Part shown: in pieces, positions 517 to 28,442 of the stretch
Layout: each line of letters begins with the position of its first letter
Numbering within the stretch: position 1 is the stretch's first letter
Origin: a virus
Length of the DNA: 30,357 bases
Strand: one strand, 5' to 3'
Virus record (IMG/VR): IMGVR_UViG_3300017771_000063
Coordinates: 1 to 30,357 of that record
Program-made: the position numbers and the translations under genes
Notes under the pieces: model-generated
What the model was told of the DNA's origin: nothing
The model's input: only the letters and a program-made list of their open reading frames with translations
Databases searched by the model: none

Positions 517-848
517 TAGCACTTACCTTTTTTCTGTTGCTTTGAAGCCCACATATTAGCATAAGCGCTAGGATATACATCAAATTTTTTTCTTGCAGCT
601 GCTTTACAACCTGCGCTTAGTTTTGCATATAATGCTGATCCCAGTTTAGCAGGTGTTTCAAAGTCTGATCCTATATCTTTTGAGCTTCTTGGAAGTTTAG
701 GGTATTTCTTATAAACGTCCTGTTGTTGATCGTAGGTTAAAGTATCAAAGCCAAACTCGCCATAGCGTTCTTGAGCTATTTTTTCTTTATTAGCTTTCAT
801 ACCAGCCTTGTACATAGCCTTAGCCGTTTTAGGGTTTATTTTTGCCAT
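516..848 (-). CDS. small basic protein with CKAAARKKFDVYPSAYAN-type motif (110 aa)
   Basis: Function unknown. Lys-rich protein whose C-terminal third holds the motif GCKAAARKKFDVYPSAYANM followed by WASKQQKKGKC, with two cysteines bracketing a conserved-looking YPSAYAN core. I associate this pattern with small proteins of marine phages and algal viruses (DUF5872-like), but could not verify it. The ATG at 848 is chosen: the longer frame to 872 would need a TTG start and would overlap the giant gene more deeply. Even so the gene overlaps the giant gene by 20 nt and is coupled to the next gene through TAATG. Like its neighbour it may be a nucleic-acid-binding virion or early-acting protein; this is inferred from charge and position only. 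Confidence 0.75.
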   Translation of the reverse strand: MAKINPKTAKAMYKAGMKANKEKIAQERYGEFGFDTLTYDQQQDVYKKYPKLPRSSKDIGSDFETPAKLGSALYAKLSAGCKAAARKKFDVYPSAYANMWASKQQKKGKC

Positions 849-3800
849 CTTTCTTTTTATTTTGTAATTCAATTATTTTTTTAACTCTAGCGTCTTCATA
901 ACGCAATGCTTTAATTTGTTTTTTATCAAGACCTAAATCTAGTAGCATTTGTGTTTGCTCAGATGTATTAGTATCACGTTTCATTACTTGAATCTCTTGC
1001 TTTTTAAGCTCTTCAGGCGTAGGTTCAACCGGTTTATCCCAGCCGCCATAATAAGGCAAACCAACATCATAAGAAGACCAACCTAGTGCCAGTGAAACTT
1101 TCTGCCACATTTGTGATTGCTCGCTTAATATACCTCTTATGTTATTTGCTTTTTTCATAACACGGTCAATAGGTAAATTTGTGAAAGCTGTTACAATTTG
1201 AGCACCTGCTAAATAAGCTGGGTTATCAAGACTAAAACCTTTTTCTTTTATTTCTTTCATGTTCCAGCTAAAGCTTTTTAAACCACCAACAAATTTTCTA
1301 TATTTAGAACTGATAGCAGGTGAAAAACTTAAAGCTTCAATAGAGGCTGCTTCATATTCAGGTCTCTTCTTGCCAGACTCTTCGTATATTTTCATTAAAG
1401 TGTTTTTAACAGCAACCATACTCATGCCAGCAATACCTAAACCTTTTAACTGAGAATCAACCATGCCGTTTGCCATTCTAGCTATTCTTTTATCATCACG
1501 AGCTTTTTTCTTTGGATCTTCATCTTCATCGTCATCACCAAATCCTATTGCAAATAAGGCTTGTTGCATGGCGTTGAATATTAAGTTTTGAATAACACCA
1601 TAATAAGCTATTCTAGCAATTTTAACTTTTGGATCACCACGACCTGCTATTAAATCTTGTAGATCTCTTTTTTGTAGTCTTACATATTGCATTGGAGTAT
1701 TGGCCCAGTTAAGTATAACACGACCCGCGCCAGAAGCTTGTTGCATACTAATTTTAGAAGGATCACTTGACTGCTGGCTTTCTTCTGCTACATCTTTAAA
1801 GTCTTCAAATGCTTTTTGTTCTGCAAGCTTTTGGTCCATACCTTCTTTTAAATACTTTTTAATTCTATTTCTATAAAAAGTAGAACCACCTGTTGCAATA
1901 GCAAAACTATCTGCGTATCTAGTAAACACAAAGCCTTTACTAAGTAAAAACGCTATAGCTGCTTTAGGTTTATTTTGAGAATCTTTTACAGCGTCTGCTA
2001 TTTCAGATTCACTTACGTTTATCTTAAGACCATTACGGCGCTGTACTAAATAGTCAGAATTTATTAACTTCATAAAGTCTGCCCAGTATTGCTTTTGATT
2101 TGCAAATGCAGCGCCTGCTTTTATAATATTATTATCACCCCAATTTAAAAAGTTTACAGCAGATATAGTTTGAAGCAGCGCAGATTTAGTATTTAAGAAC
2201 ATTACAGCACCAACAGAGTTGTTAACCCAGTCAAGAACAGCGTTGCTAGAATCAGTATAACCTAATCTATTCGTGCCAGCTTTCATACGAGCTAAACTAT
2301 TTTCTAAAGCTTTACGCCAACGAGTACCATAAGCAGCTTCCATTTTGTTTAAGTTCTCAGGTGAAAATATAATATCTACATTTTCTTGCCACTCTTGTTG
2401 ATATTCTTTACGGTTAACTTTATTAATACCACCAATAATATCTGTAGTTAGATTACCACCTAACCACTCTTTACCAGGCTTAGGATATGGTTTACCTTTT
2501 TGAATAGACATGAGTTGATCTGCAAAAGCTTGAAGCTTAGCGTCATCAGTTATAAACTTATTAAGTTTTTTAACGTCAGTTTTTGAAAGCCCAGGTATTG
2601 ACATACCTTGCTGAGTCCATATGTAAGCGCGAAGCGCATGTTGATACGTGAATTTACCAACACCTGTTTCTGTTTCTAATGTTTTAGGTAAACCTGGAAA
2701 CTGCTCTTTTAAAGCCATAAAGTCATTAGCTGCAGCTATCTTAGCTTGTATTATAGAATCTTCAGCTCTATTGTATAGATCAATAAGGTTTGTTTTTAAG
2801 AACTCATACTGAGCTTCACCTTTTTTGCCATTACCTAATAAGCTATACAATAAACCTTTAAAATCTTCAGCAGATGAAGCTAATGTTAGCCAATCAAATC
2901 TACCTTTATCTCTACCTACTGTTCTAGCTTTAGCGGCAGAAAAAGTTTTATATGATTCAATACCCGAAGAGTCTTGTATCATATCATTAACCACAGTATT
3001 AAATGTTTGCTTTTTACTAGCTCTAGCTTGCTGAACTTTAGATTTAACATCTATTTGATCTAATACTTCTTTAACTGCTTTAACATTTTTACCAGCGTCA
3101 TCTGCAAAATAAAAGTCATTATAGCCTTCAGCCGCTTTGCCAGCAATCCATCTACCTTTAGCTGCGGCTGTGCCATCGCCTAAACCAGTTATATTACCTA
3201 AAGGTATATCAATACCTAGCGCTTTCATAAAAGCTTTAATAGGACCATCAGCTTCTTGTGGTCTTGCTGTTAATATAAATAAATCTTCTGTACCACGCTT
3301 GTCTGCTATTTTTTTAGCAACATCAAACAGCGGTCCTTTCTTGCCATCAATTACCTTAGAAAACTGAGCAAAATCAAAAGTAGCACCTTGAGCTTCAAGA
3401 TCTGCTGCTTGCTCAGCAAACTGTGTAGCATTTATTTCTGTAGTAGCACCAGGTGTTTCTTTTAAAACTTCTTGCTTTTGTGACTCATTCAAACTATCGT
3501 AACCTTGTTTATAACCAGGTAAATTTTCAAATTCTTTTTTAAACTTTCTTCTAGCTACAATATCAAGCATGTCCGTGTCAATTTGAGACATTGGCTTTAT
3601 TACTATAACTTTACTATTTGATCTAGCTAAAGTGTCGTCAAAATCAAACACCCTAATTTTTTTAACTGGTTTGTCTAACTTTCTACCTTCTGCTAAAGCT
3701 TTGTCAAAAGTATTAAGCTCATTTACTACTTTAACAGTATTAGCATCTTGTTCACCTTCTATTTTTAAATTATTAGGAGCTAGGTTGTTTATTTTCTTAG

Positions 3801-6800
3801 ACTGCCTGGCTTTAGAAACCTCTGCTTCTAATTGAAAATCTAGTAGCTTTCTAGCTTTAGCTCTTGTAACTGCGTTATCACCAGTTAATATTCCAGCTTC
3901 TGTTAATATTACTTGATATATTAATTTACCCTGTAGTTGTACTACATTTATATTTTGCCTTAAATTTGGAGCAACTTCTACATTAAAATCTACAGCAACA
4001 TTTTTATCAAACACTTCTAAGTTGTTAGGGTTTAAACTAGCAGAATCTCCGTTTTTATTTTTATAGCCATTAAAATATCTTAACAAAGAACTAGGAACAG
4101 CATCCCAGTCTGCATCTTTACCTGATTTTATAGCTTTATTTAAAGCTTCCATTAAAATAGGGTGAGAAGTTCCTCCGCTATTTCTCCAAACGTTTCCATC
4201 TGAATCAACTAAATTTCCATCAACTATATCACTTTCTTTTTTTAAAGCTACTTGAATATAACTTGTTTTAATCCACTGTTTATATCTTTTTAAAGAATTT
4301 TTAGCAGCTGCAATTTTTTCCTCTAGCTCTGGCAATTTCTGCTTTGCTCCTTCAAGTTCTGCTTTATCTTTTAATTTTATTGCTTCAACTATATTTCTAT
4401 ATATTTGAAGTTTTGTTTTAGCGTGTTCTATTGCTTGAAAAACATGTTCATCTACAACTTCGCGTCTTTTACGTGTTTTACCGTTTTCTGTTATAACAGC
4501 TCCAGATTCAACACCGGCATTAGTAGCTTGGTTTCTATTTTGATTAGCGTTTAAAGCGTAATGATACATAAAGTCAGTTAAAACAGCAAAAGCTTCTTCT
4601 GATGTTTTAGCTACTTCAAGTTCTGCGTCTATTAATAAATCAACTCCTTTATTGTGAAGATCTAAATTACTAAGTCTTAATTTGTATTTAGCTCCGTCTT
4701 TTTGACCTAAAGCTTCTCTTACTTGAGTTATTTGATCTTCAGTAAAATCAGGTGTATTTTTTATTGCATCTTTTTTTATAGATTCTAATTCTAAAATTTC
4801 ACCTTTTGCAATTAAATCTTTAGCTTCTTGTCTTAATTTAGAATCTAATATTTTGTTAGAGTCTGTTATCATGTCAAGCCCTACGCCTCTTTTAGCTAAA
4901 CTAGAAACCTTATTTCCAAGCGAAAAATTAACTGATTTTTTAAGAACTTCTATAGGAAAAATAGATCCAAAAACATCTACTAGTATTTTTCTTCTTAAAG
5001 ACTTATCATTTCTTACTTTTTCTAAAGCTTCTTGATTAGCTATTTGCTTTATCTCTTTAAGCCCAGATGTTTTAGGCTGTTTTTTAATACTAAACCTAGC
5101 ACCTGTTCTTGTTCTAGCTACAGGATCTGGTACAGCTTGCTCAAATATTAAGTTTCTAAGAGATAAGTTAGCTAAGCCTTTTAATGCTTGAGCGTCAGCT
5201 GATCTGTATATTGCGTCTTTACCTTTTTTTACTTTAGCTTCAAGATTTAATGCGTCAATTATATTTTTATAATCTCTTAAACCTTTTCTAGTATCTCTTA
5301 CGTATTTGTTTTTAGAATTTTTAGTAAATAAAGCTTCTAATATTTTACCAGGTATTGATGTTGATTTGCCTTCTATGTTCGCAGATTCAGCTAGCATGGC
5401 AAAGTCAGCGTCTGCGTTTGCGTTTAACAGTTGTTGTAAAGCCGTAACAGCGCCTGACTCAACATCTTTTTTCATGATGTTTTGAGTTTTGCTAGAAAAT
5501 CTATTAGCTTTTAATCCAGTAGCTTTTTCCATCAAAGCAGCAACCGCAGGTCCTATATCTTTGATGTCTTTAAACTCTTTTATTTCACCTTTATAGAAGT
5601 TAGCAATGTCATCTGCAATAGCCTCTTCAAACATCGCGTCTACCTCGGCCTTTGTGCTAACACCTAAATTACCTAATATTGTACTAGGATACTTCCTAGA
5701 TGCTTTAGGGGTTGTTCTAGCCCTTGCTTTTGGCTTCGTAGTAGTTGTTTTACCACCAGTTGTTTTGCTTTCAATTTTTCTTTGAATGTTTTCGTCTGTA
5801 GTAGATTGAATTATACGCTCATACCTAGGATCATTTTTAAAAAACTCAAAAAGTCTAGCGTCTAAAAGCTTACCACCTGCTGTTGACGAGTTTAAATAAC
5901 CCATTATACTATCATTTCTAGCAGGATCGTAACCTTTAAGCAGACCTAACATGCCTCTTGATTCGTCATATAGAAAGTTTCTTATAACGTCTTCTCTAGC
6001 AATAGCGTCAGCATCAAATTTTAATCTACGATCTATTTCATTAAACATAGCTGGATCATTAGCTATTTCAAAAGCAGTTTCTTGTTTAGTATTAGGATCA
6101 ACAAGCTTGTCTTTAAGTGATTCTACTTTTTGATATATACGCTCTGATGTTCTAGCTTTACCTTGTTCAGTAGTTTCAGTTCCTTTTATAGTCCCGGTTT
6201 TCGCAGCCACATCTGCGCCTTTACCACTCTTAATTGCTTTATTGTATCCTTTAACAAAGTCTAAAGCACTTCTACCAGTTCTAAAGCTAATATTTAATTT
6301 ACCACCGCTAAATATACTTTTTAGTGTTCTGCCAAAATCTGCAAATTTATCAATTAAAGTAGTGTTTTCTACTATTTGATCACTAGATAAACCTTCACTA
6401 GTTAAAGTAAAAACTTCTTCATAATACTGATCTTCATTTATATCACCATCTTTAAATTGCTTATTGACTTGATCAAGTCTATTAGTAAGTAAAGCATCCA
6501 TTTCTATGCCATCACTGTTTAATAAAGCCTCTAGTTTTTTACCAGCATCTATTTTTGCAGCGCTATTATTTACAAATATTTTATCTAATAAAGCATGTAA
6601 AACCTCATGTTGAGCTGTAGTAGCTACATTATCCTTTAAAGCAGAAACTTCGTTTAGTATAATTTGAGTAGTACCATCACCCATTCTAGATATAAAACCA
6701 TAGTTTTGGTCTTTAGCAGGTAGTATATTTCCTTTTTCATCTCTAGCTAAGCCTACAACTTCACCGCCATTGGCTTCTATTGCTTCAACAGATGATATAA

Positions 6801-8979
6801 GATCTTCTGTGCCTTTAATATTCTCAAGACCTACGCCTTCAAGACCTTCAATAAAAGTCTCAGCACCTTTTATGTTTTTTGAAATTCTGTCTTGTGTAAC
6901 TAAGTTGTTTAATTCTGTATCTACTTCTTTAAGCCTAGTTGATTCTTCTTTTGTTAAACTAGAGTTATCTACTTCTTTTACTTTTTGTTGTAGATTTTTT
7001 TGCTCAATCATTAAATCAACCATAGCGGGTTGATTAGCTTCTCCTATATCTAGTTTTGTTAAAGTATTTACAGCGCCTTCAGTTTGTCTAAAGTTGTTTT
7101 TTATTTCATCACCTTTTTCTACACTGATTTCACCTGCATCTACTTGCGCTTGAACAGCTTTATCTAAAGCCATTTTAGCGACTGGATTTTGAGATAATTT
7201 TATACTGTTTTCAGTAGCTATTGGAGCTATATAAAGTTCTGTGACATTATTAAGATCAGCGTCTTTTATAGTTCTATTAACTTGTCTCGCTTGAGCATTT
7301 TGACTAATAACAGTATTAACAGCTCCACCAGCCGACAACTTTCCACCTAATGCACCACCAATTAAAAACGTGTCTATAAGTTCACTCCAAAAACCAATAA
7401 AAGCTTTTTCATCATCTAGTATATAAGAATCTGCTAGTTTATTAACAAGAAGCGTAATGCTTTCTGATGATCCTTCTGCGCCAAAATCTTTAGCTACTTG
7501 ACCAACTATTTGTTTAATGCTTTTTAGCGCAGCATCTTTTGGTATAGCTTTAAAAACTCTTTTACCTATACCCCTAAGTACGTAATCAGAAAAACCTTCA
7601 CTAACGCCATGTATTAAACTATTTGTGTTTAATTTACCGCTTAAATCTTCTCCTTGTTCTTGTTTTTCTAAACTACTCGCGGCCGCTTCGCCGGCTACTA
7701 TAGATCCAATCCCTACATATGGTACCATAGCTTGAACTAAAGATGGCAATGACTTTAAAGCCTCTGAAGACATTCTAACAGTTGCGTCCCATACTTTTCT
7801 AGTATCTAATTCTTTAAATCCTTCTCCAAACAATTCTCCAACACCTTGATCGTATTGAACCATTGTTTCATTTATAGCATCAGATTTTTGTTTAAAATTA
7901 GTAGATATACCTTGTAAGTAGTTAACAATATTAGAATTATCAACAGGTAATTTCATGCCAACCATTTTATTTAAAACCTGTTGTCTTTTTTCTACATCTA
8001 AGCTGTTATATAGTTCTAATGTTTTATCGTCTGCTAAAGCTATAAATAAGTTTTCATTAATAAAAGTAGGAAGTCTTGATAGACTACTTAGAGCTCTATA
8101 CGTATTAGACTTAATTCCTTTTAATGTTTCTCTTATTTGAACTACTTTTTGCTTGTTTTGAAGCATTAAGCTTTCTGTTATAGAGCTTTCAAGCAGCGTA
8201 GGATCTTGTATAATATAATCTTCTTCTGTAAGCTCCATTAAAGAACTAGGTTTTTTACCTGTTCTTTTTTCAAAGTTTTTCATTGCATCTTCTGTGGATG
8301 CTTTAGGTAACTCTTTTTGCGGCACATAAAAACCACCATCTTCTGCTCTTACAGCTAAATTCTTTTTTTCAGGATCTGTTTCAAGTAAAGTTACAGTACC
8401 AGGTTCTTCTTGAATCTTTTTTAATTGTTCCTGATATGCTTCAAATTCTTTTTTCTGATCTTCATTTAAATGACCAAAAGTGTTTGCTATTGAAAACTCG
8501 GCAATATCACTAGCTTTTATAAAATCTTCTTCACCTTTTTTTCTAGTTAAATAATCTAAACCACCTTGATCATTTACAGAAAACTTATATTCGTAATCAT
8601 CATTTTCTGGTGAATATACTTCGTTGGTTTTAGCTACGTTTTCATATTGTTTTTGATAATTTCTAGTAGCATCTAACTGCTCATCAGTCATGCCTGCCTG
8701 GAACTCACCAGGTTTAATTTCTTGAGATGCTAATTCTCCATCTCCAGAGTCTGAAGGATCGGATACTTCGTTTGTTTCCGCTGTTACAGTCGTATCCGTC
8801 TCCGCAACAGCAGGTGAATTTCCCTCTTTTACTACTTCAGTTGTTTCTTTAACCTCCATTTCTTCTGGAGCTTTATAACTAGTAGATGATTTCCACTCTT
8901 CTATTCTTCTTTTAATTTCTGTAGAATCAAGAGGCGGTTGAATTGCTTGTAGTTCCTGTACTTTTTCTATTAACAGCAT
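829..8979 (-). CDS. giant polyvalent-type virion/ejected protein with metallopeptidase and HAD domains (2716 aa)
   Basis: Probable internal virion protein, occupying the position of T7 gp16 and likely delivered into the host with the DNA (inferred from order, size and domains). Visible in sequence: an acidic, disordered N-terminus (about residues 30-95); two hydrophobic glycine-rich segments near 414-432 and 525-550; a coiled-coil-like stretch about 640-720; a zinc-metallopeptidase motif HEVLH at 791-795 with a candidate third ligand E854/E855; a Thr/Lys-rich linker; long charged helical regions; a HAD domain (DFDDT at 1779-1783, T1904, D1960-D1961); and a C-terminal module with hydrophobic helices around 2459-2478 followed by an Asp/Glu run. 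Such multi-enzyme giants are known as polyvalent proteins of phages and mobile elements. I see no peptidoglycan hydrolase motif and no DxDGD polymerase motif. Only 10 nt separate its ATG from the preceding stop. Confidence 0.9.
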   Translation of the reverse strand: MLLIEKVQELQAIQPPLDSTEIKRRIEEWKSSTSYKAPEEMEVKETTEVVKEGNSPAVAETDTTVTAETNEVSDPSDSGDGELASQEIKPGEFQAGMTDEQLDATRNYQKQYENVAKTNEVYSPENDDYEYKFSVNDQGGLDYLTRKKGEEDFIKASDIAEFSIANTFGHLNEDQKKEFEAYQEQLKKIQEEPGTVTLLETDPEKKNLAVRAEDGGFYVPQKELPKASTEDAMKNFEKRTGKKPSSLMELTEEDYIIQDPTLLESSITESLMLQNKQKVVQIRETLKGIKSNTYRALSSLSRLPTFINENLFIALADDKTLELYNSLDVEKRQQVLNKMVGMKLPVDNSNIVNYLQGISTNFKQKSDAINETMVQYDQGVGELFGEGFKELDTRKVWDATVRMSSEALKSLPSLVQAMVPYVGIGSIVAGEAAASSLEKQEQGEDLSGKLNTNSLIHGVSEGFSDYVLRGIGKRVFKAIPKDAALKSIKQIVGQVAKDFGAEGSSESITLLVNKLADSYILDDEKAFIGFWSELIDTFLIGGALGGKLSAGGAVNTVISQNAQARQVNRTIKDADLNNVTELYIAPIATENSIKLSQNPVAKMALDKAVQAQVDAGEISVEKGDEIKNNFRQTEGAVNTLTKLDIGEANQPAMVDLMIEQKNLQQKVKEVDNSSLTKEESTRLKEVDTELNNLVTQDRISKNIKGAETFIEGLEGVGLENIKGTEDLISSVEAIEANGGEVVGLARDEKGNILPAKDQNYGFISRMGDGTTQIILNEVSALKDNVATTAQHEVLHALLDKIFVNNSAAKIDAGKKLEALLNSDGIEMDALLTNRLDQVNKQFKDGDINEDQYYEEVFTLTSEGLSSDQIVENTTLIDKFADFGRTLKSIFSGGKLNISFRTGRSALDFVKGYNKAIKSGKGADVAAKTGTIKGTETTEQGKARTSERIYQKVESLKDKLVDPNTKQETAFEIANDPAMFNEIDRRLKFDADAIAREDVIRNFLYDESRGMLGLLKGYDPARNDSIMGYLNSSTAGGKLLDARLFEFFKNDPRYERIIQSTTDENIQRKIESKTTGGKTTTTKPKARARTTPKASRKYPSTILGNLGVSTKAEVDAMFEEAIADDIANFYKGEIKEFKDIKDIGPAVAALMEKATGLKANRFSSKTQNIMKKDVESGAVTALQQLLNANADADFAMLAESANIEGKSTSIPGKILEALFTKNSKNKYVRDTRKGLRDYKNIIDALNLEAKVKKGKDAIYRSADAQALKGLANLSLRNLIFEQAVPDPVARTRTGARFSIKKQPKTSGLKEIKQIANQEALEKVRNDKSLRRKILVDVFGSIFPIEVLKKSVNFSLGNKVSSLAKRGVGLDMITDSNKILDSKLRQEAKDLIAKGEILELESIKKDAIKNTPDFTEDQITQVREALGQKDGAKYKLRLSNLDLHNKGVDLLIDAELEVAKTSEEAFAVLTDFMYHYALNANQNRNQATNAGVESGAVITENGKTRKRREVVDEHVFQAIEHAKTKLQIYRNIVEAIKLKDKAELEGAKQKLPELEEKIAAAKNSLKRYKQWIKTSYIQVALKKESDIVDGNLVDSDGNVWRNSGGTSHPILMEALNKAIKSGKDADWDAVPSSLLRYFNGYKNKNGDSASLNPNNLEVFDKNVAVDFNVEVAPNLRQNINVVQLQGKLIYQVILTEAGILTGDNAVTRAKARKLLDFQLEAEVSKARQSKKINNLAPNNLKIEGEQDANTVKVVNELNTFDKALAEGRKLDKPVKKIRVFDFDDTLARSNSKVIVIKPMSQIDTDMLDIVARRKFKKEFENLPGYKQGYDSLNESQKQEVLKETPGATTEINATQFAEQAADLEAQGATFDFAQFSKVIDGKKGPLFDVAKKIADKRGTEDLFILTARPQEADGPIKAFMKALGIDIPLGNITGLGDGTAAAKGRWIAGKAAEGYNDFYFADDAGKNVKAVKEVLDQIDVKSKVQQARASKKQTFNTVVNDMIQDSSGIESYKTFSAAKARTVGRDKGRFDWLTLASSAEDFKGLLYSLLGNGKKGEAQYEFLKTNLIDLYNRAEDSIIQAKIAAANDFMALKEQFPGLPKTLETETGVGKFTYQHALRAYIWTQQGMSIPGLSKTDVKKLNKFITDDAKLQAFADQLMSIQKGKPYPKPGKEWLGGNLTTDIIGGINKVNRKEYQQEWQENVDIIFSPENLNKMEAAYGTRWRKALENSLARMKAGTNRLGYTDSSNAVLDWVNNSVGAVMFLNTKSALLQTISAVNFLNWGDNNIIKAGAAFANQKQYWADFMKLINSDYLVQRRNGLKINVSESEIADAVKDSQNKPKAAIAFLLSKGFVFTRYADSFAIATGGSTFYRNRIKKYLKEGMDQKLAEQKAFEDFKDVAEESQQSSDPSKISMQQASGAGRVILNWANTPMQYVRLQKRDLQDLIAGRGDPKVKIARIAYYGVIQNLIFNAMQQALFAIGFGDDDEDEDPKKKARDDKRIARMANGMVDSQLKGLGIAGMSMVAVKNTLMKIYEESGKKRPEYEAASIEALSFSPAISSKYRKFVGGLKSFSWNMKEIKEKGFSLDNPAYLAGAQIVTAFTNLPIDRVMKKANNIRGILSEQSQMWQKVSLALGWSSYDVGLPYYGGWDKPVEPTPEELKKQEIQVMKRDTNTSEQTQMLLDLGLDKKQIKALRYEDARVKKIIELQNKKKDGKNKP
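3025..3660 (-). other. HAD-superfamily phosphatase-like domain within the giant protein
   Basis: Residues about 1774-1985. Motif I is VFDFDDTLA, with the nucleophile/acid pair D1779 and D1781 and T1783. Motif II is the threonine of FILTARP (T1904). Motif IV is the acidic pair D1960-D1961 in YFADDAGKN. Candidate motif III lysines lie in the KGR/AGK segment before motif IV. All four HAD elements occur in the right order, with a roughly 110-residue cap between motifs I and II that contains a Gln/Ala/Glu-rich stretch. A phosphohydrolase or nucleotidase-type activity is expected of the family; the substrate is unknown. Confidence 0.75.
6385..6777 (-). other. zinc metallopeptidase domain within the giant protein
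   Basis: Residues about 735-865 of the 2716-aa protein. The zinc-binding HExxH motif is HEVLH (residues 791-795, bases 6595-6609), preceded by a strand-like IILNEVSAL and AATTAQ-type lead-in typical of peptidases where N and A/T residues precede the HExxH helix. Some 60 residues later YYEEVF (bases 6409-6426) offers glutamates 854/855 as the third zinc ligand, as in gluzincins. The layout resembles metallopeptidase domains of phage polyvalent proteins. Catalytic activity is inferred from these residues only; no substrate can be named. Confidence 0.65.
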
Positions 8980-8989
8980 TTAATTAAAT

Positions 8990-10036
8990 TTATAATTGGT
9001 TATCGTCAATGAATTTTTGAGCTTTAGCTTTTTTATTTTCTTCTGAATTAAATGGAGCAGCATCTGCTGGATCTTCAGGTAATTTATTAGCAGTAAATTT
9101 ATCTATATAATTATACATTAAATATTCCATGTATTTTTTAAAAAACTCATCTTTTTTATCATCGCTTAAAGGTAAATTATCTTCATACAACCAGTAGTCT
9201 TTGTGTTCAGAAAAATAAACATTCCAAGCGGCTATAGTGTCTTGCTCGAATCTCATTATACCAGCTACTTCGGCTCTTACAAATGGAGTTATTTTTCTTT
9301 GTATTTTGTCTAAATCATATTTTAATATGTTTCTACTAAAACCATTTTCTATTTCTATAACATCATACTCAGGTTTTCCATCAGATCCTGTTATTATAAA
9401 CTCATTTGATATTTTAGCACTTGGTTTTAATTCTTCATTTTCATCTATAGATTCAGGTAAAAATAAAGTAGCTTGAACAAGCAGGCTCATCATAGATTTT
9501 TCTATGTCTGGAGTTATAGATACTATGTTTTGATTTATACCAAGAAGACTATATAGTGCGTTACTGTTTATTACTAAAGGTTGTTCTAAAGCAGGACCAT
9601 TAAAAATTAAATCTTGACTACCATTTTCATTTAAATATAAACTAACATCATAACCGTCTTGTCTTGAAAAACCAGGTCTTGACAACATTACACAGTAAGC
9701 TACGTTATACCTATAATCATTATTTAAATCAAAATTAGGTTTAGTTACATTAGTTAATTGAGAAATTAAATTAGACATAAAATCTAAAGATTTTTTAGGC
9801 GCATCTTCTAAATGCTGAAGAAAAGTTATTTCGCTTTGACAACTACTATCCTGACAGTCTCCACTTTCTATTTTAGACTTTACACTAGCGTATAATTCGC
9901 CTGTTCCAGTGTATGCTTTTTCAAATATTTTAAAATCATAATCTACAGAACTAGATATATAATCACTACTAAAGGCTAAAGCTCCAGTTGTTAATATCTT
10001 TTGTATAAGCGAGTTATTTATTATGTTTTTATTCAT
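8990..10036 (-). CDS. hypothetical internal virion protein at the gp15 position (348 aa)
   Basis: Not recognised by sequence. A soluble, mixed alpha/beta, acidic protein with a hydrophobic-leaning N-terminus (residues 1-25), a cysteine pair in GDCQDSSC near residue 60 that could form a disulphide, and an acidic Asp/Glu/Lys-rich C-terminus ending in a charged helix. It lies between the gly-zipper/S74 protein and the giant protein, the position T7 uses for internal core protein gp15, and is separated from the upstream stop by one base. A role as capsid cargo or ejection protein is inferred from this context only. The start is the ATG directly after the upstream TAA. Confidence 0.85.
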   Translation of the reverse strand: MNKNIINNSLIQKILTTGALAFSSDYISSSVDYDFKIFEKAYTGTGELYASVKSKIESGDCQDSSCQSEITFLQHLEDAPKKSLDFMSNLISQLTNVTKPNFDLNNDYRYNVAYCVMLSRPGFSRQDGYDVSLYLNENGSQDLIFNGPALEQPLVINSNALYSLLGINQNIVSITPDIEKSMMSLLVQATLFLPESIDENEELKPSAKISNEFIITGSDGKPEYDVIEIENGFSRNILKYDLDKIQRKITPFVRAEVAGIMRFEQDTIAAWNVYFSEHKDYWLYEDNLPLSDDKKDEFFKKYMEYLMYNYIDKFTANKLPEDPADAAPFNSEENKKAKAQKFIDDNQL

Positions 10037-11405: not shown

Positions 11406-12761
11406 TTAATATCCATTAGTGACAGCATAATCAGCCGATACACTAAATAACTCTTTTAAACCACCAGGGTTTGTAACAGTATCTGTGGATACTTTTACGG
11501 TAGAATAATAGCCTTTTATACCTAATTGACTATCACCTAATATTACTTGCCCAGGCGTTGTTTGAGTTCTTGCACTTTTTCTTATGCCCGCTACATATGT
11601 ATTTTCTTTTATATCAAAACCAGCATGAAATATAGGTTCTTGCGCAGAAACACCAGTGTTACCACTTGTATCATAAGATCCTTCTAAAAAGCTTAATATA
11701 GGTTGACCTATGTCTACGTAGTTGTTGCCAGTAGCGTTCCCATTATAACCTTGAACACCTTGCGTGCTGCCTTGAAGCGAAGAAACTTTCCAGCCATTAC
11801 TACCTTCATAAGCTATAGTGCTAAAAGACTTAGCGGAAGCAACATTAGGATTAAATATAAATTCTATAAAAGAAGGAACAATAGCATTTCCATAAAAAAT
11901 TCCTCTTGTAGCTCCACCAGCGTAATGTATCCATAGTTGTCCACCAGACGTAGAAAATGTATTGTTTTTTATACTAAATATAAATTCTGGTTTAAAAGAA
12001 TATCTACTAACCCAAGCATTGACAGAGTCATCAAAGGCTAAAGTTTGAAAATTACCATTTGAAGACTGCGTGCTTAAAGTATATACTTTGTTGTGAATAT
12101 CAAAACCGCCTTCTATTCTACCAAAATCATCTATTAAACCTAGTTGATTTCTAAAATAAGTTTTCATACCGTAGTTTGATATTTCTTCTACGCCATTAGC
12201 TGATAACCTTAAAACACTTCCTCTGTCTCTATCTGTAAAATATTTTCTATACCCATAAACAGCAAAGCTTTCTGGATTTCTAGATATACCAAACTCACCA
12301 TTATAGGGAACTATTTGACCTATGACATCCATAGATGTAGTAACCGTTTTACTTCCTTCTGCAGAGTATATAGCGTTTTTATCTATTAAAGCTCTACTTA
12401 CTTTTAACTCTTGAAATATATTTAAATTAGTATCTTCAGCGTAAAGTTTTTGTATGCTACCTTTGTCTGGGTTAACGGTTTTAGTTATATCATCACCAAC
12501 TGAAAATACATTTGTTTGGTTTACAGAAGTTCTAGAGTTGTATATACCAGAGTAAATTATAGAATTAGACAATATTTTTTGAGTTCTATCATCTGATACT
12601 AAGTAAGCTCTAGCTCCTGGACTAACTGATTTGTTGTTGAATCCACCTTTTATTCTTGCTTCTTCAACATACCAATCACCAGTAGTGTCGCCACCGGGTA
12701 CGAAATTCTTCTTTTTTAACCAAAAAGAGTTATAATATTGTATTCCTAATGTAATTGGCAT
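11406..12761 (-). CDS. nozzle/tail stabilisation protein, second part (451 aa)
   Basis: Beta-rich protein with a repeated blade-like pattern of short strands and G/N/D turns. The segment around residues 75-215 (SVGDDITKTV, GSIQKLYAEDTNL, VSRALIDKNAIYSAEG, EFGISRNPESFA, GYRKYFTDR, EEISNYGM) is one I recognise from marine podovirus and crAss-like tail stabilisation or nozzle proteins of the P22 gp10/T7 gp12 type; this recognition is from memory. It follows the 1696-aa nozzle protein after a 34-nt gap holding the motif at 12773-12783. The two probably assemble together at the tail tip. The ATG at 12761 follows the A/T leader AAAGTATAA with no Shine-Dalgarno sequence. Confidence 0.75.
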   Translation of the reverse strand: MPITLGIQYYNSFWLKKKNFVPGGDTTGDWYVEEARIKGGFNNKSVSPGARAYLVSDDRTQKILSNSIIYSGIYNSRTSVNQTNVFSVGDDITKTVNPDKGSIQKLYAEDTNLNIFQELKVSRALIDKNAIYSAEGSKTVTTSMDVIGQIVPYNGEFGISRNPESFAVYGYRKYFTDRDRGSVLRLSANGVEEISNYGMKTYFRNQLGLIDDFGRIEGGFDIHNKVYTLSTQSSNGNFQTLAFDDSVNAWVSRYSFKPEFIFSIKNNTFSTSGGQLWIHYAGGATRGIFYGNAIVPSFIEFIFNPNVASAKSFSTIAYEGSNGWKVSSLQGSTQGVQGYNGNATGNNYVDIGQPILSFLEGSYDTSGNTGVSAQEPIFHAGFDIKENTYVAGIRKSARTQTTPGQVILGDSQLGIKGYYSTVKVSTDTVTNPGGLKELFSVSADYAVTNGY

Positions 12762-12795: not shown

Positions 12796-15700
12796 TTACG
12801 GACACGTGTCTATATCCCAAGAGTTTCTATCAAACGGACCTCCACCGGGCTGATTATAATTGTCATTTTCGTTTGCATTAAATGGGATACCTATTGGCAC
12901 TGGTTCAAATAAGAACGGAGATTGACCTCCAAATGAATAGTAATTACTAGGAATAGGACCAGCGCCTGGCGCATTTCCCATCCCAGCAGGTGCAAAAACA
13001 ATAGCAAGGAATTTATCCATAGTTCCAGCTCCGTTTTTATTAAAATTTAAAATTTGTAATTCAATATTATGTATTAAAGATCCGGCTTCTACGCTTGGAG
13101 CTTGATTTGGACCCGTTGGCACGAAGGGTAATAATTGAAATAAAGGCCCTTGAGGAAGCGGTGGACCTGCTGTACCTGCAAAAATTTGTTTAAATCCTCC
13201 AGCTGCGCAGAAAGGCGGTCCTACTAATGGCACGCCAGAAGGATCATTAAAAGAAGTTGGTATCGCTGTAGCTCTTCCTGTTATATTTGCACGTGCTCCT
13301 GTAGATGGAGTATTAGTTCCTTCATTATAACACACTAACCACGCCCACACTGTTGTTGCGGTCCAATTTGCTACAGCACCTACTTTACTTGCTTGGTTTT
13401 GAGTTGGTAATGATTGAAACGTAGGATCAAGAGCGTTAAAAACAGGACCATCATAATTAGGTGGTGCAATGTTGTTGTCTAATTGAACGCCTTGATATCC
13501 AGCCCAAACAATTTGATTTAAATAGCTTACGGCCTCTGGAGTAAAAGCTATAATTGTTTCTGTTGACATACCATCTCCGAATGCTTCACTATCACTTCTA
13601 TCTGTTACTCTTACTTGTATTTTGTAAAAGAAGTTTGGTGTAAGAGGTTGAAAACCTGTAACAGATATAGTTGCTTGACCTTCATTATATTGAGAATATT
13701 CTTGAATATCAAAAGTTCTTTCTGCGACAGGCGTGTCTGCGTTTTGTATAAATTCAGGAACTCCACCAGTACATTGACCATCACCCGTAGGTTCTTTTGT
13801 TGCGTTTATTATTTCAAAAAATAATTGTTGACCATTTCTATTTGGATCTGCTGATCCATTTATAGCTTGAAGAAAAGGTGGTGGTATGGAAGGATCTGTG
13901 CATGATATTTGAGGACCCATTATGTAATTACTAGCCTCACTTACCGATTGAACAAAGTAATCTACATCATCAAAACATGGCCCAATACAGAAATTACAAT
14001 TGTTTAAATCGTGACAATTACTAACAAAAGACGGTGCTTGATTTTGAAGAGTTGCTTCTAAAGACAAAACTATTGTTTCACCTGATTCAACTTCTAATTC
14101 TATGTTAAATTGATAATATTCTGCAGTTTCTACATCTTGTAAAGCAACTTGAGGGCTAAACAACGATAAACTATAAGATCCATCAGGGTTTGAATTTAAT
14201 GAAAATTCTTCATTTCTATTTACATTTGTATTTAAATCTCCTAAAGGATTTTTAGAAAATACAGAGGTAAGTGTACCTATAGTGTTTAATACGTTGTTAC
14301 CTGCTGAATTAATTGGAAAAAATAATGTTGATATTTGAGTTCCGGGTGTCATACCTTCATTAACACTTATTTGAGTGCCAGATGTAAAACCTACCGGAGT
14401 AGCTGTAGTTGAAAGTAAGTCTTGATTTAAATCAGATATAAGACCTGTAGTAGAAGATTCCCAGAATATATCTAAAACAGATTCTACAGCCTGTGTTTCA
14501 TATACCGCTAAGTACATGGAATTAGGATATGGACTTCCAGGTATAAATGTACTTTCTACTTCACCAATGCCATTTTGAGTACTTATTCTACCTATAAGAG
14601 GGTTTGAGTTTGTTATTTGATTTTCAACAGCTATGGTAATACCACCAGTTGATTGCGGATTAACAACATTTTCAAAGTAATTTATAGGAAAGCCTGGATA
14701 TAAACAGTTTCCATTAGGAGCGCCATTCGATGTATTTGTATAATCTGGTATAGGGCCAAACAAAGTTCTTTGATCACTTATAAGTACTACTGTATCTGGT
14801 GTAAGAGATGGATAATACTGCACGTTCTTTTTAGCAGCATCATTAGAGTTAGTTACTCTACCAAAAAGCTGAATACTACTATTAAATTCTGTTTGCGTAG
14901 GACCTACACTTCCAAGATCTCTAGGTATTTTATTTATATTATCACTTATTAAAACAACATGAGCTGTATCATTTCTTTCATCTTCGTTGTTAACAATAGG
15001 ATAACCATTTATAACACCTGGTAGATAAACGTTGTAGTAGTCTTGCTGTTTTTGCTGTACTACAACTCTATACGAATAAAAACCAAGTTCATTTATAACA
15101 TATGTTGCCCTTGTTCTTTCTGCTAAAAGAGTATCTACAAAAACTCCACCTTGATTATATCTATATTCAAAAAGATAATCATCATCTATTCTTCCTTGCA
15201 TAACCATAGTAAGAGCTGGTAGACTTGGATCAGTTGTGCTATCCCATGAAGTACTTATTACTTCTACATAATCATTATAATAACCTCTTAAATATTTAGT
15301 ATTATTAAAATACTCTTCAGCTGTTGTTTGTGACCAGCCTGTAAATAAATTACTAGCCCTGTAAGTCCAAGTATTATTAGCGTTTTGAGATACTTCTTCA
15401 AAATATCTAAGAGGAGCGGTAGGCGTTGCGCCATTGTATGGGGTTGTGTAAAAACTACTTGTAGCATAAGCACCTGGGTAACCAGCATTGCCATTGTAAT
15501 TAACAGCTTCCGGTATTAATGTATTAAAAGTAATTCTTAAATTATCACCTTCCCAACTTGATATGCTAGGTTGAAAATTATCTCTTTTATATCCATGAAA
15601 AATGTTAGACCCTTCTTCTGGTTGCCCAAATTTGTCTAATAAATTATCATAGCTAGAAAGTATTACATCAGATTGTCTACCCCATTTATCAGCTAATATA

Positions 15701-17886
15701 ATACCTACTTTATAATTTCTGTTTTGTTTGATATTATGGTTAGGATATTCTACGTCTTCTTGAGGACTTTTTTCATCTATACTTATTTTGTAATCTAAGT
15801 TAAGTAAACCAGCGTGATTAGCCACGAAATTACCATACATAACTCTATTGCCCGAGCTTTCTTGAGCCAATGCTCTAACTGGTACTTTATCATAAACTCT
15901 TACTACTTCACGCTCTGGAAGAGTTCTATAAGGCTTTAATGATTGATAATTGTATTGATAAACTGGATCTGGCGTGTAGCTAAGTTCAACTAAATTTCCA
16001 TCGCTATATGACACGTCTTTATCAAGTTGCAATGTATAATAAGGTGGATTTTGTGAAGAATCTACTGTTATAGAAATTACTTTAGCTGGGGGTGTTACGG
16101 CTACTCCGTTTATAGACGTTATCACGTATCCTGGAATTATACCATTTTCAGAATCTATAGTTATTGCACTAGAAGTCGCAGATCCTATAGCGTTTGTGGT
16201 TGCTATTCTGCTGGTATAAAGCGCGTCAAAAGAAGAATCAACGTCTATAGATTCTAAAACCTTAAAAGCTAGGCCATCAGATTCTTTTATTAGTATATCA
16301 ATCTCTTTTACTTTATAGTCTTTATTAATACTTCCAGAAGGTAAAGGTATGTTTAAAACAAAATTATTAACATTGTTTTGCATAAAATCTACTATTGTAG
16401 ATCTAAATGTTTTTTCACCATCTCCTTCAAAGAAAAGTCCACCTTGATTTGGTATAAAAGCAGCTTGAGTAAATGGCGCAACTAAAGAGTACTCGTTGTC
16501 ATCAAATTTAAACCTGTAAGAAAATCTAACAAATTTTTCTCTTAAGTAATCTGGATCACCATTCCAACCATCGTAATCATCTTCTCTTATGCATCTTATA
16601 TAATAACCTACGTAGTCATTGCTGGTTGGAGCTGGAGCTAAAGATGGTCCTATGGCAGTATTTGATCCTCTAAACGCTATAAATTTTTCAGCACCAGGCG
16701 CGGCACCTTTTATCCAATAATAAGCCGCATTATTTTGAAAATTACCTGGATTTACACTATCGTCTCCACCTATGTTTATAAAGTCTGTAACTCCACCTCC
16801 GTTTGCTTTTCTATATCCTGTAGGAATAGAATCAAAAAATTCATTATTAACCTCCGTGCCGGCATAGTCAACAGCATCTGCTAGTGAAACTACCCAAGTA
16901 CCTGGTACGTAAGGAAAGTTGTTATCAGCGGTGTTAGGTGAACTTCCACTGGTGGATTTTAATCTATCAGTATCATTGCTTACAGAAGATAATAAATTAT
17001 TAAAATCAGATTCTTCTGGCAGTTTAAAACCTATTGGCGCTATAGTATCTCCGCCGCTAGAATTGCCAAATACATCGACATTATTAGACTGCATGCAAAA
17101 TCTGTTGTATATTTTTCCATACACTTCGCCATTAATAGGATCAAAATCATAATAACACCAGGCTGGTTGTTTGTTTAAAATTCTTTGTTTCCAATCTGCA
17201 AAGCTTTGAGCTTCATGTATTATAGCTCTATTTCTAAAAGATGTAACTTTTAAATTTTTTGTAGCCCAAGTTATAGGACCTATTGTTGTATCAGGTAGAT
17301 CTCTACCATCACTCATAGTGCTAGGCTTTAAGGTTGCAGTGCTAGTTAAATCTATAAGGCGAGGAGATAAATAAGGCGAGAATTTAGCAACAGATATTTG
17401 CTGCTCATTTGTGTAGTAGTAAGAAGTTGTAGTATTGAAAGACAAGGCTGATTGCCAATTTATTTTCCTTGGTTGATTAAAATTGTCTGTAAAAAACAAT
17501 AAGTCTTCAATTACCGTAGCTCCATTCATTGGATGGTTTGAAGAAAAATTTAACCAATCTCCTTGTACCAAAGTGTCAGCTAATCCAGACTGAGAATATC
17601 TAATTATAAAATGAGAAGCAATATCATTTGTTAAAAATAAAAATACAGCTTCTGAGTTTTGATCTACTACATAACCTATTGTTTTTAAATTACTAACACC
17701 TGTGTGTGTTTGAAAGTTTAAAACGCTTTCATTTCCTTGTATATTTTCAACTGCGCCAACGTCAGAACCAGCTGATTGACTTACTTGTATATTTAAAGCA
17801 TCTCTATATTCTCCGTTTTGTATTAAACGAGCATCTAAGTCCTTATTCATTTTGGACTTTAAAAATACATTTCTAGCTCTAGCCAT
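12796..17886 (-). CDS. large nozzle/tail-tubular-B-like tail protein with FISUMP insertion (1696 aa)
   Basis: Main distal tail protein. The N-terminus (NVFLKSKMNKDLDARL, GEYRDALNI, DVGAVENIQGN, then LLFFTDNFNQPRKINW at 129-144) is the typical opening of P22 gp10/T7 gp12-like nozzle proteins in marine phages. A FISUMP domain interrupts it at about 203-436. The core resumes at FVRFSYRFKFDDNEYSLVAPF and includes HVVLISDNINKIPRDL, conserved in this family as I remember it. Then come a cadherin-like region (about 1166-1290), a Cys cluster (C-x6-C-x2-C-x3-C), an Fn3-like stretch near 1416-1434 and a Pro/Gly-rich, G+C-richer C-terminus. T7 gp12 is about 800 aa, so this is roughly twice the usual size, with the extra length in likely adhesion domains. 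The ATG lies 6 nt after the upstream stop. Confidence 0.85.
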   Translation of the reverse strand: MARARNVFLKSKMNKDLDARLIQNGEYRDALNIQVSQSAGSDVGAVENIQGNESVLNFQTHTGVSNLKTIGYVVDQNSEAVFLFLTNDIASHFIIRYSQSGLADTLVQGDWLNFSSNHPMNGATVIEDLLFFTDNFNQPRKINWQSALSFNTTTSYYYTNEQQISVAKFSPYLSPRLIDLTSTATLKPSTMSDGRDLPDTTIGPITWATKNLKVTSFRNRAIIHEAQSFADWKQRILNKQPAWCYYDFDPINGEVYGKIYNRFCMQSNNVDVFGNSSGGDTIAPIGFKLPEESDFNNLLSSVSNDTDRLKSTSGSSPNTADNNFPYVPGTWVVSLADAVDYAGTEVNNEFFDSIPTGYRKANGGGVTDFINIGGDDSVNPGNFQNNAAYYWIKGAAPGAEKFIAFRGSNTAIGPSLAPAPTSNDYVGYYIRCIREDDYDGWNGDPDYLREKFVRFSYRFKFDDNEYSLVAPFTQAAFIPNQGGLFFEGDGEKTFRSTIVDFMQNNVNNFVLNIPLPSGSINKDYKVKEIDILIKESDGLAFKVLESIDVDSSFDALYTSRIATTNAIGSATSSAITIDSENGIIPGYVITSINGVAVTPPAKVISITVDSSQNPPYYTLQLDKDVSYSDGNLVELSYTPDPVYQYNYQSLKPYRTLPEREVVRVYDKVPVRALAQESSGNRVMYGNFVANHAGLLNLDYKISIDEKSPQEDVEYPNHNIKQNRNYKVGIILADKWGRQSDVILSSYDNLLDKFGQPEEGSNIFHGYKRDNFQPSISSWEGDNLRITFNTLIPEAVNYNGNAGYPGAYATSSFYTTPYNGATPTAPLRYFEEVSQNANNTWTYRASNLFTGWSQTTAEEYFNNTKYLRGYYNDYVEVISTSWDSTTDPSLPALTMVMQGRIDDDYLFEYRYNQGGVFVDTLLAERTRATYVINELGFYSYRVVVQQKQQDYYNVYLPGVINGYPIVNNEDERNDTAHVVLISDNINKIPRDLGSVGPTQTEFNSSIQLFGRVTNSNDAAKKNVQYYPSLTPDTVVLISDQRTLFGPIPDYTNTSNGAPNGNCLYPGFPINYFENVVNPQSTGGITIAVENQITNSNPLIGRISTQNGIGEVESTFIPGSPYPNSMYLAVYETQAVESVLDIFWESSTTGLISDLNQDLLSTTATPVGFTSGTQISVNEGMTPGTQISTLFFPINSAGNNVLNTIGTLTSVFSKNPLGDLNTNVNRNEEFSLNSNPDGSYSLSLFSPQVALQDVETAEYYQFNIELEVESGETIVLSLEATLQNQAPSFVSNCHDLNNCNFCIGPCFDDVDYFVQSVSEASNYIMGPQISCTDPSIPPPFLQAINGSADPNRNGQQLFFEIINATKEPTGDGQCTGGVPEFIQNADTPVAERTFDIQEYSQYNEGQATISVTGFQPLTPNFFYKIQVRVTDRSDSEAFGDGMSTETIIAFTPEAVSYLNQIVWAGYQGVQLDNNIAPPNYDGPVFNALDPTFQSLPTQNQASKVGAVANWTATTVWAWLVCYNEGTNTPSTGARANITGRATAIPTSFNDPSGVPLVGPPFCAAGGFKQIFAGTAGPPLPQGPLFQLLPFVPTGPNQAPSVEAGSLIHNIELQILNFNKNGAGTMDKFLAIVFAPAGMGNAPGAGPIPSNYYSFGGQSPFLFEPVPIGIPFNANENDNYNQPGGGPFDRNSWDIDTCP
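13975..14016 (-). other. cysteine cluster C-x6-C-x2-C-x3-C in the nozzle protein
   Basis: The peptide NCHDLNNCNFCIGPCFDD contains four cysteines and a histidine within 15 residues of an otherwise cysteine-poor 1696-aa protein. It lies directly after the cadherin-like segment and before the Pro-rich C-terminal half. It could bind a metal ion or form two disulphides in the assembled virion. Confidence 0.6.
16579..17280 (-). other. FISUMP (Fib_succ_major) C-type-lectin-like domain inserted in the nozzle protein
   Basis: Residues about 203-436. The hallmark order is present: ITWATKNLKVTSFRN at the start, WCYYDFDP and YGKIYNRFCM next, then IAPIGFKLPEESDFNNL, LKSTSG, IPTGYRKANGG, AAYYWIK, and the closing YYIRCIRED. 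These match the xGYxLP, PxGYR, YWSS and VRCIRD landmarks of Fibrobacter succinogenes major paralogous domains, which Pfam groups with C-type lectin folds as I recall. The family is abundant in Bacteroidetes and Fibrobacteres surface proteins. The nozzle sequence resumes immediately afterwards, so this is an insertion rather than a terminal fusion. Confidence 0.8.
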
Positions 17887-20872: not shown

Positions 20873-22309
20873 TTATACTCCTTTGAATAATACAAAGTTG
20901 TTAGCAGCTTGTGTTACTAAACATCTTTCAGATAGGAAGTTTACTTCCATAGCATCCAGTGTAGATGTAAATGCACCACCAGCAGAACCAGTCAACCAAG
21001 ACTTCATACGACGATCATCAGCTTGTGAAGCTCTGTATCGTACGTGTAAGAAAGGTCTACGGATGTTAGTCCCTAAAACTTGGTCATAAACAGTTGATGT
21101 TCCAGCAGGCACTAATACGCCTTCAATTGAATTAACACCTACAATAGCACCACGAGTAGAAGCATCATTTAAGTATTTCCAATCTGTTTTATAGAAATCG
21201 TAAGATCCTCTACGGAAGCCACTAAATCCAAGATTTAATGCCATTTCCTCAGAGTTTTCAAATAAACCAAATGCAGTACCACCGGCAGTTCCACCAGAGA
21301 TTGCAGCAAGCATATCATCAAAATCAAGAGCTGTTTGTCTATTCAAGAATAACATGTTTTCTTCAATAGCGCCTTGAGTATCTAAGTTTTTCAAAATAGC
21401 ATCAAATTCATCTAGTCCAGCAGCAGCAGTAAATCCTACTTCTACATTTCCACGAGTTTGAATGGCAGAGAATAAACCTTGAGTACCAGGAAGCTTGTCA
21501 GTTTGAGTAGCTCCAGCTCCAGCATTTTGATTATATTCACCTTCTACCATAGCCATTTCTAAGTAATCTTCAAAACGTAAACGAGTTTCAGATTCAGCTT
21601 TTAAATACCATAAGTATCCAGATGTTCCATCTTCTGTAGCAACTTCTACCCATCCAATTTGTGCCATATCAGAACCAGATACAGTGTATTGGTTTCTAAT
21701 AATAACAGGTGAGTTAGAAAATTGTGTAAATGAAGGTGTAACACTTACCCTGTCTCCAGTTGCAATGCTAGATCCTTTTGCATAGTCAGAACCATACACA
21801 AAGATTTTAACATTACCACCAAGACCAGCAAAGAAAGTAGCACCTAAAGCAGCTCCGCTATAAGGCTGTACAGTTATAGCACCAGTTGCAGGAGCAGCCG
21901 TTGCGCCAGAAGCAGTTACTAAAGCTTTAGCTTCAATTCCAGAAGCTGGATCTAAAATAACGATAGTATCGTTTACAGATATTACATTAGTAATATTAGC
22001 TCCAACTGGAATAGTTAAAAGGTTTACAGCAGCACCAGCGCCTAATACTACGTTTTCATAAGAAATATGCAAACGGTTTTGTTCAGACCAAATTACTTGA
22101 TCAGATGTCATAGGCATTTCAGCGCCTACCATTCGTAAAAATCCAGATAACGTTCTGTTTCCATAACGCTCTACTTCTTGTTCGTAGATCTCTGGTAAGT
22201 ATTGTTGCGCAAAATCATTAGTGCCGTCGTTAAACTGCAAGTAATTTGATTGCAACAATTGTTGTTTTTGAGATGGGACTAACGACCCAAATTGAGGAGT
22301 TAAACTCAT
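20873..22309 (-). CDS. major capsid protein (478 aa)
   Basis: Major head protein. The N-terminal arm (QYLPEIYEQEVERYGNRTLS, then FLRMVGAEMPMTSDQVIWSE), a small beta/Ala-Gly-rich insertion domain (about residues 90-170), the helical core (RLRFEDYLEMAMVEGEYN) and the C-terminal segment (FYKTDWKYLNDASTRG, RRPFLHVRYRAS, DDRRMKSWLTGSAGG, FLSERCLVTQ) match a capsid family I know from marine podovirus-like and crAss-like phages, expected to have the HK97 fold. Position after portal and scaffold agrees. Its DNA is visibly less AT-biased than its neighbours, fitting high expression. The ATG is preceded by AAAAAATTTAAACAATT, with no Shine-Dalgarno sequence, and a strong hairpin follows the stop. Confidence 0.9.
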   Translation of the reverse strand: MSLTPQFGSLVPSQKQQLLQSNYLQFNDGTNDFAQQYLPEIYEQEVERYGNRTLSGFLRMVGAEMPMTSDQVIWSEQNRLHISYENVVLGAGAAVNLLTIPVGANITNVISVNDTIVILDPASGIEAKALVTASGATAAPATGAITVQPYSGAALGATFFAGLGGNVKIFVYGSDYAKGSSIATGDRVSVTPSFTQFSNSPVIIRNQYTVSGSDMAQIGWVEVATEDGTSGYLWYLKAESETRLRFEDYLEMAMVEGEYNQNAGAGATQTDKLPGTQGLFSAIQTRGNVEVGFTAAAGLDEFDAILKNLDTQGAIEENMLFLNRQTALDFDDMLAAISGGTAGGTAFGLFENSEEMALNLGFSGFRRGSYDFYKTDWKYLNDASTRGAIVGVNSIEGVLVPAGTSTVYDQVLGTNIRRPFLHVRYRASQADDRRMKSWLTGSAGGAFTSTLDAMEVNFLSERCLVTQAANNFVLFKGV

Positions 22310-28167: not shown

Positions 28168-28442
28168 TAGTTAGATCTTCCTTCAGCAAAACCTTTAAAA
28201 GCTCTTTGTTCTTTAACTTCTTTTGGTTTATCATTTAATAGGTTTTCTTCTTCTTCAATACGACTAAGTATTTCAAAGGCGTCGAATATAGCTAGCTTTT
28301 TAGTAGCTGCAGCGTTTTTAAGTCTATCAGCTGATATATCATCATCTGAATCAACAATAGCTTCTTTAGCTACTTTGATTAACTCTTCAACTGCTCGCTG
28401 CCCAGCTTGGATTATATTCTTTTTCGTTTCCTTGGTATTCAT
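28167..28442 (-). CDS. probable terminase small subunit (91 aa)
   Basis: Small, mostly helical acidic protein (AGQRAVEELIKVAKEAIV, then DSDDDISADRLKNAAATKKL and FEILSRIEEEENLL) ending in a basic tail. It sits immediately before the large terminase, sharing TAATG, which is the usual place for the DNA-recognition subunit. No helix-turn-helix signature is obvious, so the call rests on position and size. The ATG at 28442 is the only methionine in the frame and makes the gene overlap the GroES-like gene by 56 nt, an unusually long overlap for this cassette. Confidence 0.6.
   Translation of the reverse strand: MNTKETKKNIIQAGQRAVEELIKVAKEAIVDSDDDISADRLKNAAATKKLAIFDAFEILSRIEEEENLLNDKPKEVKEQRAFKGFAEGRSN

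Follow-up and report, generated by a model that had tools for sequence, protein, structure and literature searches.

A giant polyvalent-type protein with zincin-like and HAD-fold domains, most likely virion-packaged, in an uncultured phage related to marine flavophages

Polyvalent proteins are very large, multidomain proteins of phages and plasmids with a zincin-like metallopeptidase hub, a helical C-terminus, and a late structural gene context, and are thought to target host systems; self-processing by the zincin has been proposed for them in general (PMC5512222). A comparable giant is the virion RNA polymerase of phage N4 (gp50), an ejected podovirus protein whose large, mostly helical C-terminal part contains an HExxH subdomain and autoinhibits the polymerase (PMC12633501), so that zincins of such giants need not act as proteases. 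The cargo proteins C1 and C2 of crAss001 are likewise large packaged proteins of a Bacteroidota podovirus and are believed to be ejected (PMC10136315). The giant protein described here shares with polyvalent proteins the large multidomain make-up, the zincin-like hub, the helical C-terminus, and the late structural gene context, but adds a HAD domain and is not recognized by the LPD or MPTase models of Pfam. It differs from N4 gp50 in having a HAD domain and no RNA polymerase match, and from C1/C2 in that the description of them considered here mentions neither a HAD domain nor a zincin; the genome encoding the giant also has a muzzle-like tail domain, as in crAss001. Zincin-bearing polyvalent proteins are already known, and the new part is the HAD phosphatase-like domain. 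The terms “phosphatase,” “haloacid,” and “HAD superfamily” are absent from the main text of the founding survey (Iyer et al., 2017; PMC5512222), and a literature search of partial coverage found no earlier description of this giant family.

The giant is encoded in a window (the whole stretch of DNA analyzed) of 30,357 nucleotides, which is a linear IMG/VR record (IMGVR_UViG_3300017771_000063). The ORF at 829-8979 (-) starts with ATG, has no internal stops, and encodes 2716 amino acids, exactly as in the preliminary description; homologues occur in IMG/VR. It is the final gene of a structural cluster encoded on one strand in the order terminase, portal, 403-aa protein, head protein, tail genes, muzzle-like tail protein, adhesin, S74-like protein, 348-aa protein, and giant. 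Within the cluster, the terminase large subunit (25957-28167 (-); phrog_6681, 1e-162), the portal protein (23569-25956 (-); phrog_6547, 9e-140), the head protein, which is the major capsid candidate (20873-22309 (-); phrog_13704, 7e-89), and a tail protein with a crAss-muzzle-like C-terminal domain (11406-12761 (-); PF25729, 6e-06; phrog_14478) were identified. The 348-aa protein (8990-10036 (-)) is separated from the giant by a 10-base gap and is found beside the giant in many relatives at ~42-53% identity, and this co-conservation makes it a candidate ejection partner. The window also encodes a virion protein of 1696 aa that contains a Fib_succ_major domain (12796-17886; 3e-12) and is alignable only in part among relatives, and a phage GroES-like co-chaperonin adjoining the terminase (28387-28992), as is likewise the case in Elemovirus and phi38:1. 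Promoter and terminator scans gave scores no better than those of shuffled sequences.

The closest terminase, at 63% identity, is that of MW202828 (an uncultured podovirus from Manatee Spring); the Elemovirus terminase is 44% identical, and the next-ranked relatives are Cellulophaga phages phi38:1 (Pervagoviridae) and phi18:3 (Pachyviridae) and Tenacibaculum phage Gundel. Judged by terminase and portal sequences, the phage groups with Elemovirus, Pervagoviridae, and Pachyviridae (flavophages), and is thus an uncultured relative of phages of marine Bacteroidota. Host assignment from MAG contigs was rejected because the bins were taxonomically inconsistent and the contigs phage-like, and the host claim therefore stops at the flavophage relatives. 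In MW202828, the closest terminase relative, a different giant of 3859 aa, which contains two HExxH motifs but lacks a HAD domain, occupies the same place (L013, 741-12320); the slot is retained and its content swapped. Elemovirus elemoE_6-9C gp18 (3694 aa) and Tenacibaculum phage Gundel_1 gp74 (2482 aa) are also giants encoded beside the structural cluster, the former sharing the zincin and the latter part of the C-terminal region with the window protein, but both lack the HAD domain.

The giant had been assigned to a T7 “gp16 slot” on the basis of gene-by-gene synteny, an assignment that the comparisons did not bear out. Profile and BLAST tests of the window structural proteins and the giant profiles against T7 and N4 proteins gave zero significant matches, and the synteny is accordingly an analogy of order, not homology. 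An orthologue of T7 gp16, i.e., a core protein in which something else had taken the place of the lytic transglycosylase, would fit the large size of the giant and its location after the tail genes, which are the only features the two proteins have in common. However, no module of the giant is profile-similar to gp16, no transglycosylase domain is present, no neighbor is T7-like, and the terminase and portal cluster with those of flavophages, which makes this already disfavored reading extremely improbable. Homology to the N4 polymerase was also rejected, as the HExxH region aligned weakly and without significance (hhalign P 0.018); the zincin and C-terminus had no significant profile similarity to N4 gp50, and no single-chain RNA polymerase domain was found in the giant by Pfam, PHROGs, or NCBIfam.

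Near relatives of the giant share residues 1-80 and residues ~1750-2716, the latter at up to 88-99% identity. The N-terminal segment (residues 1-80; 8740-8979 (-)) has ~38-60% identity in many relatives, where the following region is often not alignable, and may be a packaging segment. The middle of the protein (residues ~90-1700; 3880-8712 (-)) is a variable mosaic with abrupt drops in identity between pairs. For example, the giant of L002 has ~90% identity to residues 1101-1300 and nothing alignable to residues 1301-1700, with breaks at residues 1300 and 1750. This middle contains a second confidently predicted helical domain (residues ~1090-1260; 5200-5712 (-)), with pLDDT mostly 85-97 and ~90% identity in L002 and L008. 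The variable halves of 23 relatives gave essentially nothing in Pfam beyond isolated weak matches. Residues 364-558 are matched by the giant of Maribacter phage Panino (L010, 17896-23385), which is annotated as a “tRNA methyltransferase.” The helical C-terminal chassis (residues 2040-2716; 832-2862 (-)) is present in all near relatives and resembles the C-termini of polyvalent proteins in the BFVD comparison. On sequence comparison, the constant parts are the HAD domain and the ~700-residue helical C-terminus, the zincin is nearly constant, and the remainder is exchanged between phages. Hydrophobic segments, described earlier as lying near both ends, do exist at residues 411-429 (7693-7749 (-); Kyte-Doolittle mean 1.5), 526-544 (7348-7404 (-); mean 1.38), 1332-1350, and 2462-2480, but these are not all near the ends. 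In L008 (14290-14404) and also in L018, the giant ORF is split into 2070 and 661 aa between the HAD domain and the chassis, with frame breaks near homopolymer runs. The split is probably a sequence error or a broken copy; a natural separation of HAD and chassis was rejected because the missing stretch lies in another frame, which makes frame breaks or sequencing error likelier.

The zincin-like metallopeptidase domain (residues ~716-865; 6385-6834 (-)) is predicted by AF2 with pLDDT of ~90 or more as strands followed by the HExxH helix and then a helix with E855. The elements of a zincin fold, namely a small sheet, an HExxH helix, and a later helix bearing the third-ligand Glu, are all present in the AF2 model and the alignment, in the element order described for polyvalent metallopeptidases by Iyer et al. 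(PMC5512222). The HEVLH motif (residues 791-795; 6595-6609 (-)) is not a chance occurrence: only 0.15% of 2000 shuffled versions of the giant, which has 10 His in total, contain HExxH. Across 52 aligned relatives, H791, E792, H795, and E855 are the sole invariant zincin columns; the invariance of H/E/H is partly by construction, since members were picked by HExxH, while that of E855 (6415-6417 (-)), the presumed third zinc ligand, is independent of the selection. The dN/dS of the domain is ~0.11 against L001 and L008, and 0.44 against L002, where diverged versions are aligned. These observations agree with the earlier reading of an HExxH metallopeptidase, and the bounds proposed for it (735-865) agree well with the predicted fold. 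Foldseek gave weak PDB matches, of which the best meaningful one was the anthrax lethal factor fold (E 0.58); a link of N4-type zincins to the lethal-factor superfamily was reported by Iyer et al. (PMC5512222), and in the present model the match indicates a fold resemblance only. The zincin profile also matches Elemovirus gp18, annotated as a “structural protein,” at 38 bits in a small database.

The HAD-fold domain (residues ~1770-1985; 3025-3672 (-)) has motif I (DFDDT, residues 1779-1783; 3631-3645 (-)), the motif II Thr (T1904 in LTAR; 3268-3270 (-)), and the motif IV Asp-Asp (residues 1960-1961 in FADD; 3097-3102 (-)). No variation occurs among 57 relatives at D1779, D1781, D1782, T1783, T1904, Lys 1941/1948, or D1960-D1961, and the superfamily set DxDx[T/V], [S/T], K, DD was found in the alignment, with a Rossmann-like strand order in the confident AF2 model. 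The complete HAD motif set claimed from the preliminary inspection is thus present, its proposed bounds (1774-1985) agree well with the predicted fold, and selection on the domain is strongly purifying (dN/dS 0.08-0.13). The window HAD domain alone had zero matches in Pfam. Among HAD family members searched at E up to 1, DUF2608, a HAD-clan family, was matched in 38 of 49 (best 1.2e-5) and HAD PF12710 in 16 of 49 (best 0.0097). The best meaningful Foldseek match in the PDB was 6aok (Ceg4; probability 0.91 but E 0.31), a HAD phosphotyrosine phosphatase (PMC7542358). The domain resembles DUF2608/Ceg4-type phosphatases in its DxDxT, T, K, and DD motifs and in these Foldseek and DUF2608 matches, but it sits in a 2716-aa phage protein and has its own inserts between motifs I and II. 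Every match of whole AF2 models to PDB structures had E >0.001, and PDB profile searches with the HAD, C-terminal, or zincin alignments gave no convincing match. Just upstream of the HAD domain, 23 divergent relatives have an invariant Glu-His in an “EHxxPA” stretch (alignment A4; residues 1959-1960 of the L003 giant).

The spacing of HAD motifs I and II is ~78 residues in most relatives, 124 in the window protein, which has a ~46-residue insert in the alignment (3454-3591 (-)), and ~280 in relatives that carry a P-loop kinase at this site. The nested kinase occurs in L007 (16277-17578), L031, L032, L034, L036, and L037, is strongly conserved in sequence among them, and matches AAA_33 (2e-15 to 2e-16) and Zeta_toxin (to 1e-11) in Pfam. 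The MAG contigs L097 and L098 likewise have a P-loop kinase between HAD motifs I and II, whereas the window giant has none inside its HAD domain. Membership in the PNKP family (T4 PseT-like) was not adopted, as the HAD profile aligned with T4 PseT in motif I only (33 columns, probability 51%; control RnlA, 0.2%) and the kinase is present only in the sister proteins.

HAD relatives were found in at least 479 uncultured viral stretches of IMG/VR, and a search of 50,697 phage records gave only two weak matches and no strong one. An intact HExxH lies in the same ORF as the HAD domain in 77 of 87 distinct giants, including that of the window. The other ten comprise two with HExxxH (L007 and L096), a variant also mentioned by Iyer et al. 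(PMC5512222), one with HExxH in the adjacent upstream ORF (L061), a 5′-truncated fragment (L085), and six in which EExxH replaces HExxH in a related domain (L004, L026, L054, L055, L064, and L093; giant residues ~980-1140) within a conserved AP[IL]EE[LI]FH context. The EExxH group may have a changed metal ligand or represent a pseudo-enzyme, and proteolysis may therefore not be universal. As far as the sequences searched indicate, the zincin-HAD pairing belongs to dozens of related ocean viruses and to no cultured phage. The larger set of relatives was gathered via the HAD domain itself, and an independent whole-protein search also found HAD in nine of nine. Since every relative retains the HAD domain and most of the remaining protein is exchanged, HAD is probably the central function of the giant.

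The giant is most likely packaged in the virus particle. Its positional counterpart in phi18:3, gp123, carries the annotation “structural protein, experimental MS/MS,” and because no sequence similarity between gp123 and the giant was detected, this support is positional. In BFVD, the HAD domain together with the C-terminus matches three proteins of uncultured viruses (36-39% identity), whose identity range applies to that combined stretch; the C-terminus by itself matches many giants, those named large polyvalent, PolyVal ADP-ribosyltransferase (PolyVal-ART), or MuF at E 1e-6 to 2e-4. Homology to giants of cultured phages is seen domain by domain: the C-terminal profile matches part of the chassis in Gundel_1 gp74 (35 bits, small database), and the zincin match to the “structural protein” gp18 of Elemovirus likewise favors a virion location. 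Location at the end of the structural cluster, the positional counterpart, and the likeness to polyvalent C-termini all favor the virion location proposed at the outset, and the absence of a muralytic domain was upheld in that none was recognized by Pfam, PHROGs, or NCBIfam. Two marks of polyvalent proteins were found, namely several unrelated enzymatic domains in one phage polypeptide (the zincin and HAD, from conservation and AF2) and structural likeness to annotated polyvalent giants (BFVD), in line with the suggested class. Curated Pfam and NCBIfam models of known LPD/PolyVal domains gave no convincing match in the window protein, which reflects a limit of the models and not a defining requirement of the class.

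Taken together, the giant is probably a polyvalent, virion-packaged, and likely ejected protein, encoded by a podovirus akin to Elemovirus and Pervagoviridae, with a zincin that would cut the giant itself or a host protein and a HAD domain that would remove phosphate. The giant would be made late from the structural operon, as gene order suggests, and packed in the capsid, as the MS/MS annotation of gp123 suggests; it would probably leave the capsid together with the DNA or before it, by analogy with the N4 and crAss cargo proteins (PMC12633501; PMC10136315). A constant chassis for packaging and translocation would be formed by the N-terminal segment together with the helical C-terminus of 700 residues, and the exchangeable middle would provide phage- or host-specific functions. 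The zincin would most likely cleave the giant, releasing or activating parts, or a host protein, and the HAD domain would most likely dephosphorylate a nucleotide, a protein, or the end of a nucleic acid once the phage has entered a new cell.

The enzymes may be more narrowly those of an injected effector that acts on host proteins at entry by proteolysis and dephosphorylation, as suggested by the match to the protein phosphatase Ceg4 (6aok; PMC7542358) and by the host targets envisaged for polyvalent proteins (PMC5512222). We regard this as a tentative possibility, as the Foldseek E is only 0.31, a fold does not reveal the substrate of a HAD domain, the kinase-bearing sisters suggest non-protein substrates, and the zincin may self-process. 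Zincin self-processing and HAD action on nucleic acids or nucleotides are at least as likely as host-protein substrates; the protein-phosphatase reading of the HAD domain draws on one fold match, and the nucleic-acid-end reading on the nested kinase of the sister proteins. Equally tentative is a role in which the HAD domain, with the P-loop kinase in the six sisters, heals nucleic-acid ends in a PNKP-like manner or modifies nucleotides after entry, for example against host nucleases. T4 PseT does combine a kinase with a phosphatase, but the profile match to it covers nothing beyond motif I, kinases of the zeta-toxin type can act on other substrates, and the window protein lacks the kinase.

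Both domains could instead lack catalytic activity and persist as relics with a structural or regulatory role in an ejection protein that is packaged, as the six EExxH relatives and the autoinhibitory HExxH-containing part of the N4 polymerase (PMC12633501) would allow. This is rather unlikely given that all HAD catalytic residues are invariant in 57 diverse members, that HExxH and the third Glu are retained in most, and that dN/dS is ~0.1. A late enzyme that stays in the producing cell, such as a prohead maturation protease, is less likely still: a zincin from the structural operon could process virion proteins, but the size of the giant, its polyvalent C-terminus, and the annotation of phi18:3 gp123 as a virion protein from MS/MS data argue against it, and the HAD domain has no obvious maturation role.

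The polyvalent, packaged giant suggests a wider possibility, which we offer as speculative, that a large group of uncultured marine phages delivers a ready-made phosphatase into the host, built into a packaged giant as its constant enzymatic core and joined in some members by a nested kinase. If so, the delivered phosphatase would be active during the first minutes of infection, healing, for example, nucleic-acid ends cut by host defenses or silencing host phospho-signaling, and the zincin would release parts of the giant. Giants with the HAD domain are nearly invisible in culture collections, yet common in IMG/VR, and the kinase nested in the HAD domains of the sisters hints at a biochemical role that can be tested. 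Packaged giants reveal needs of a phage that precede any gene expression.
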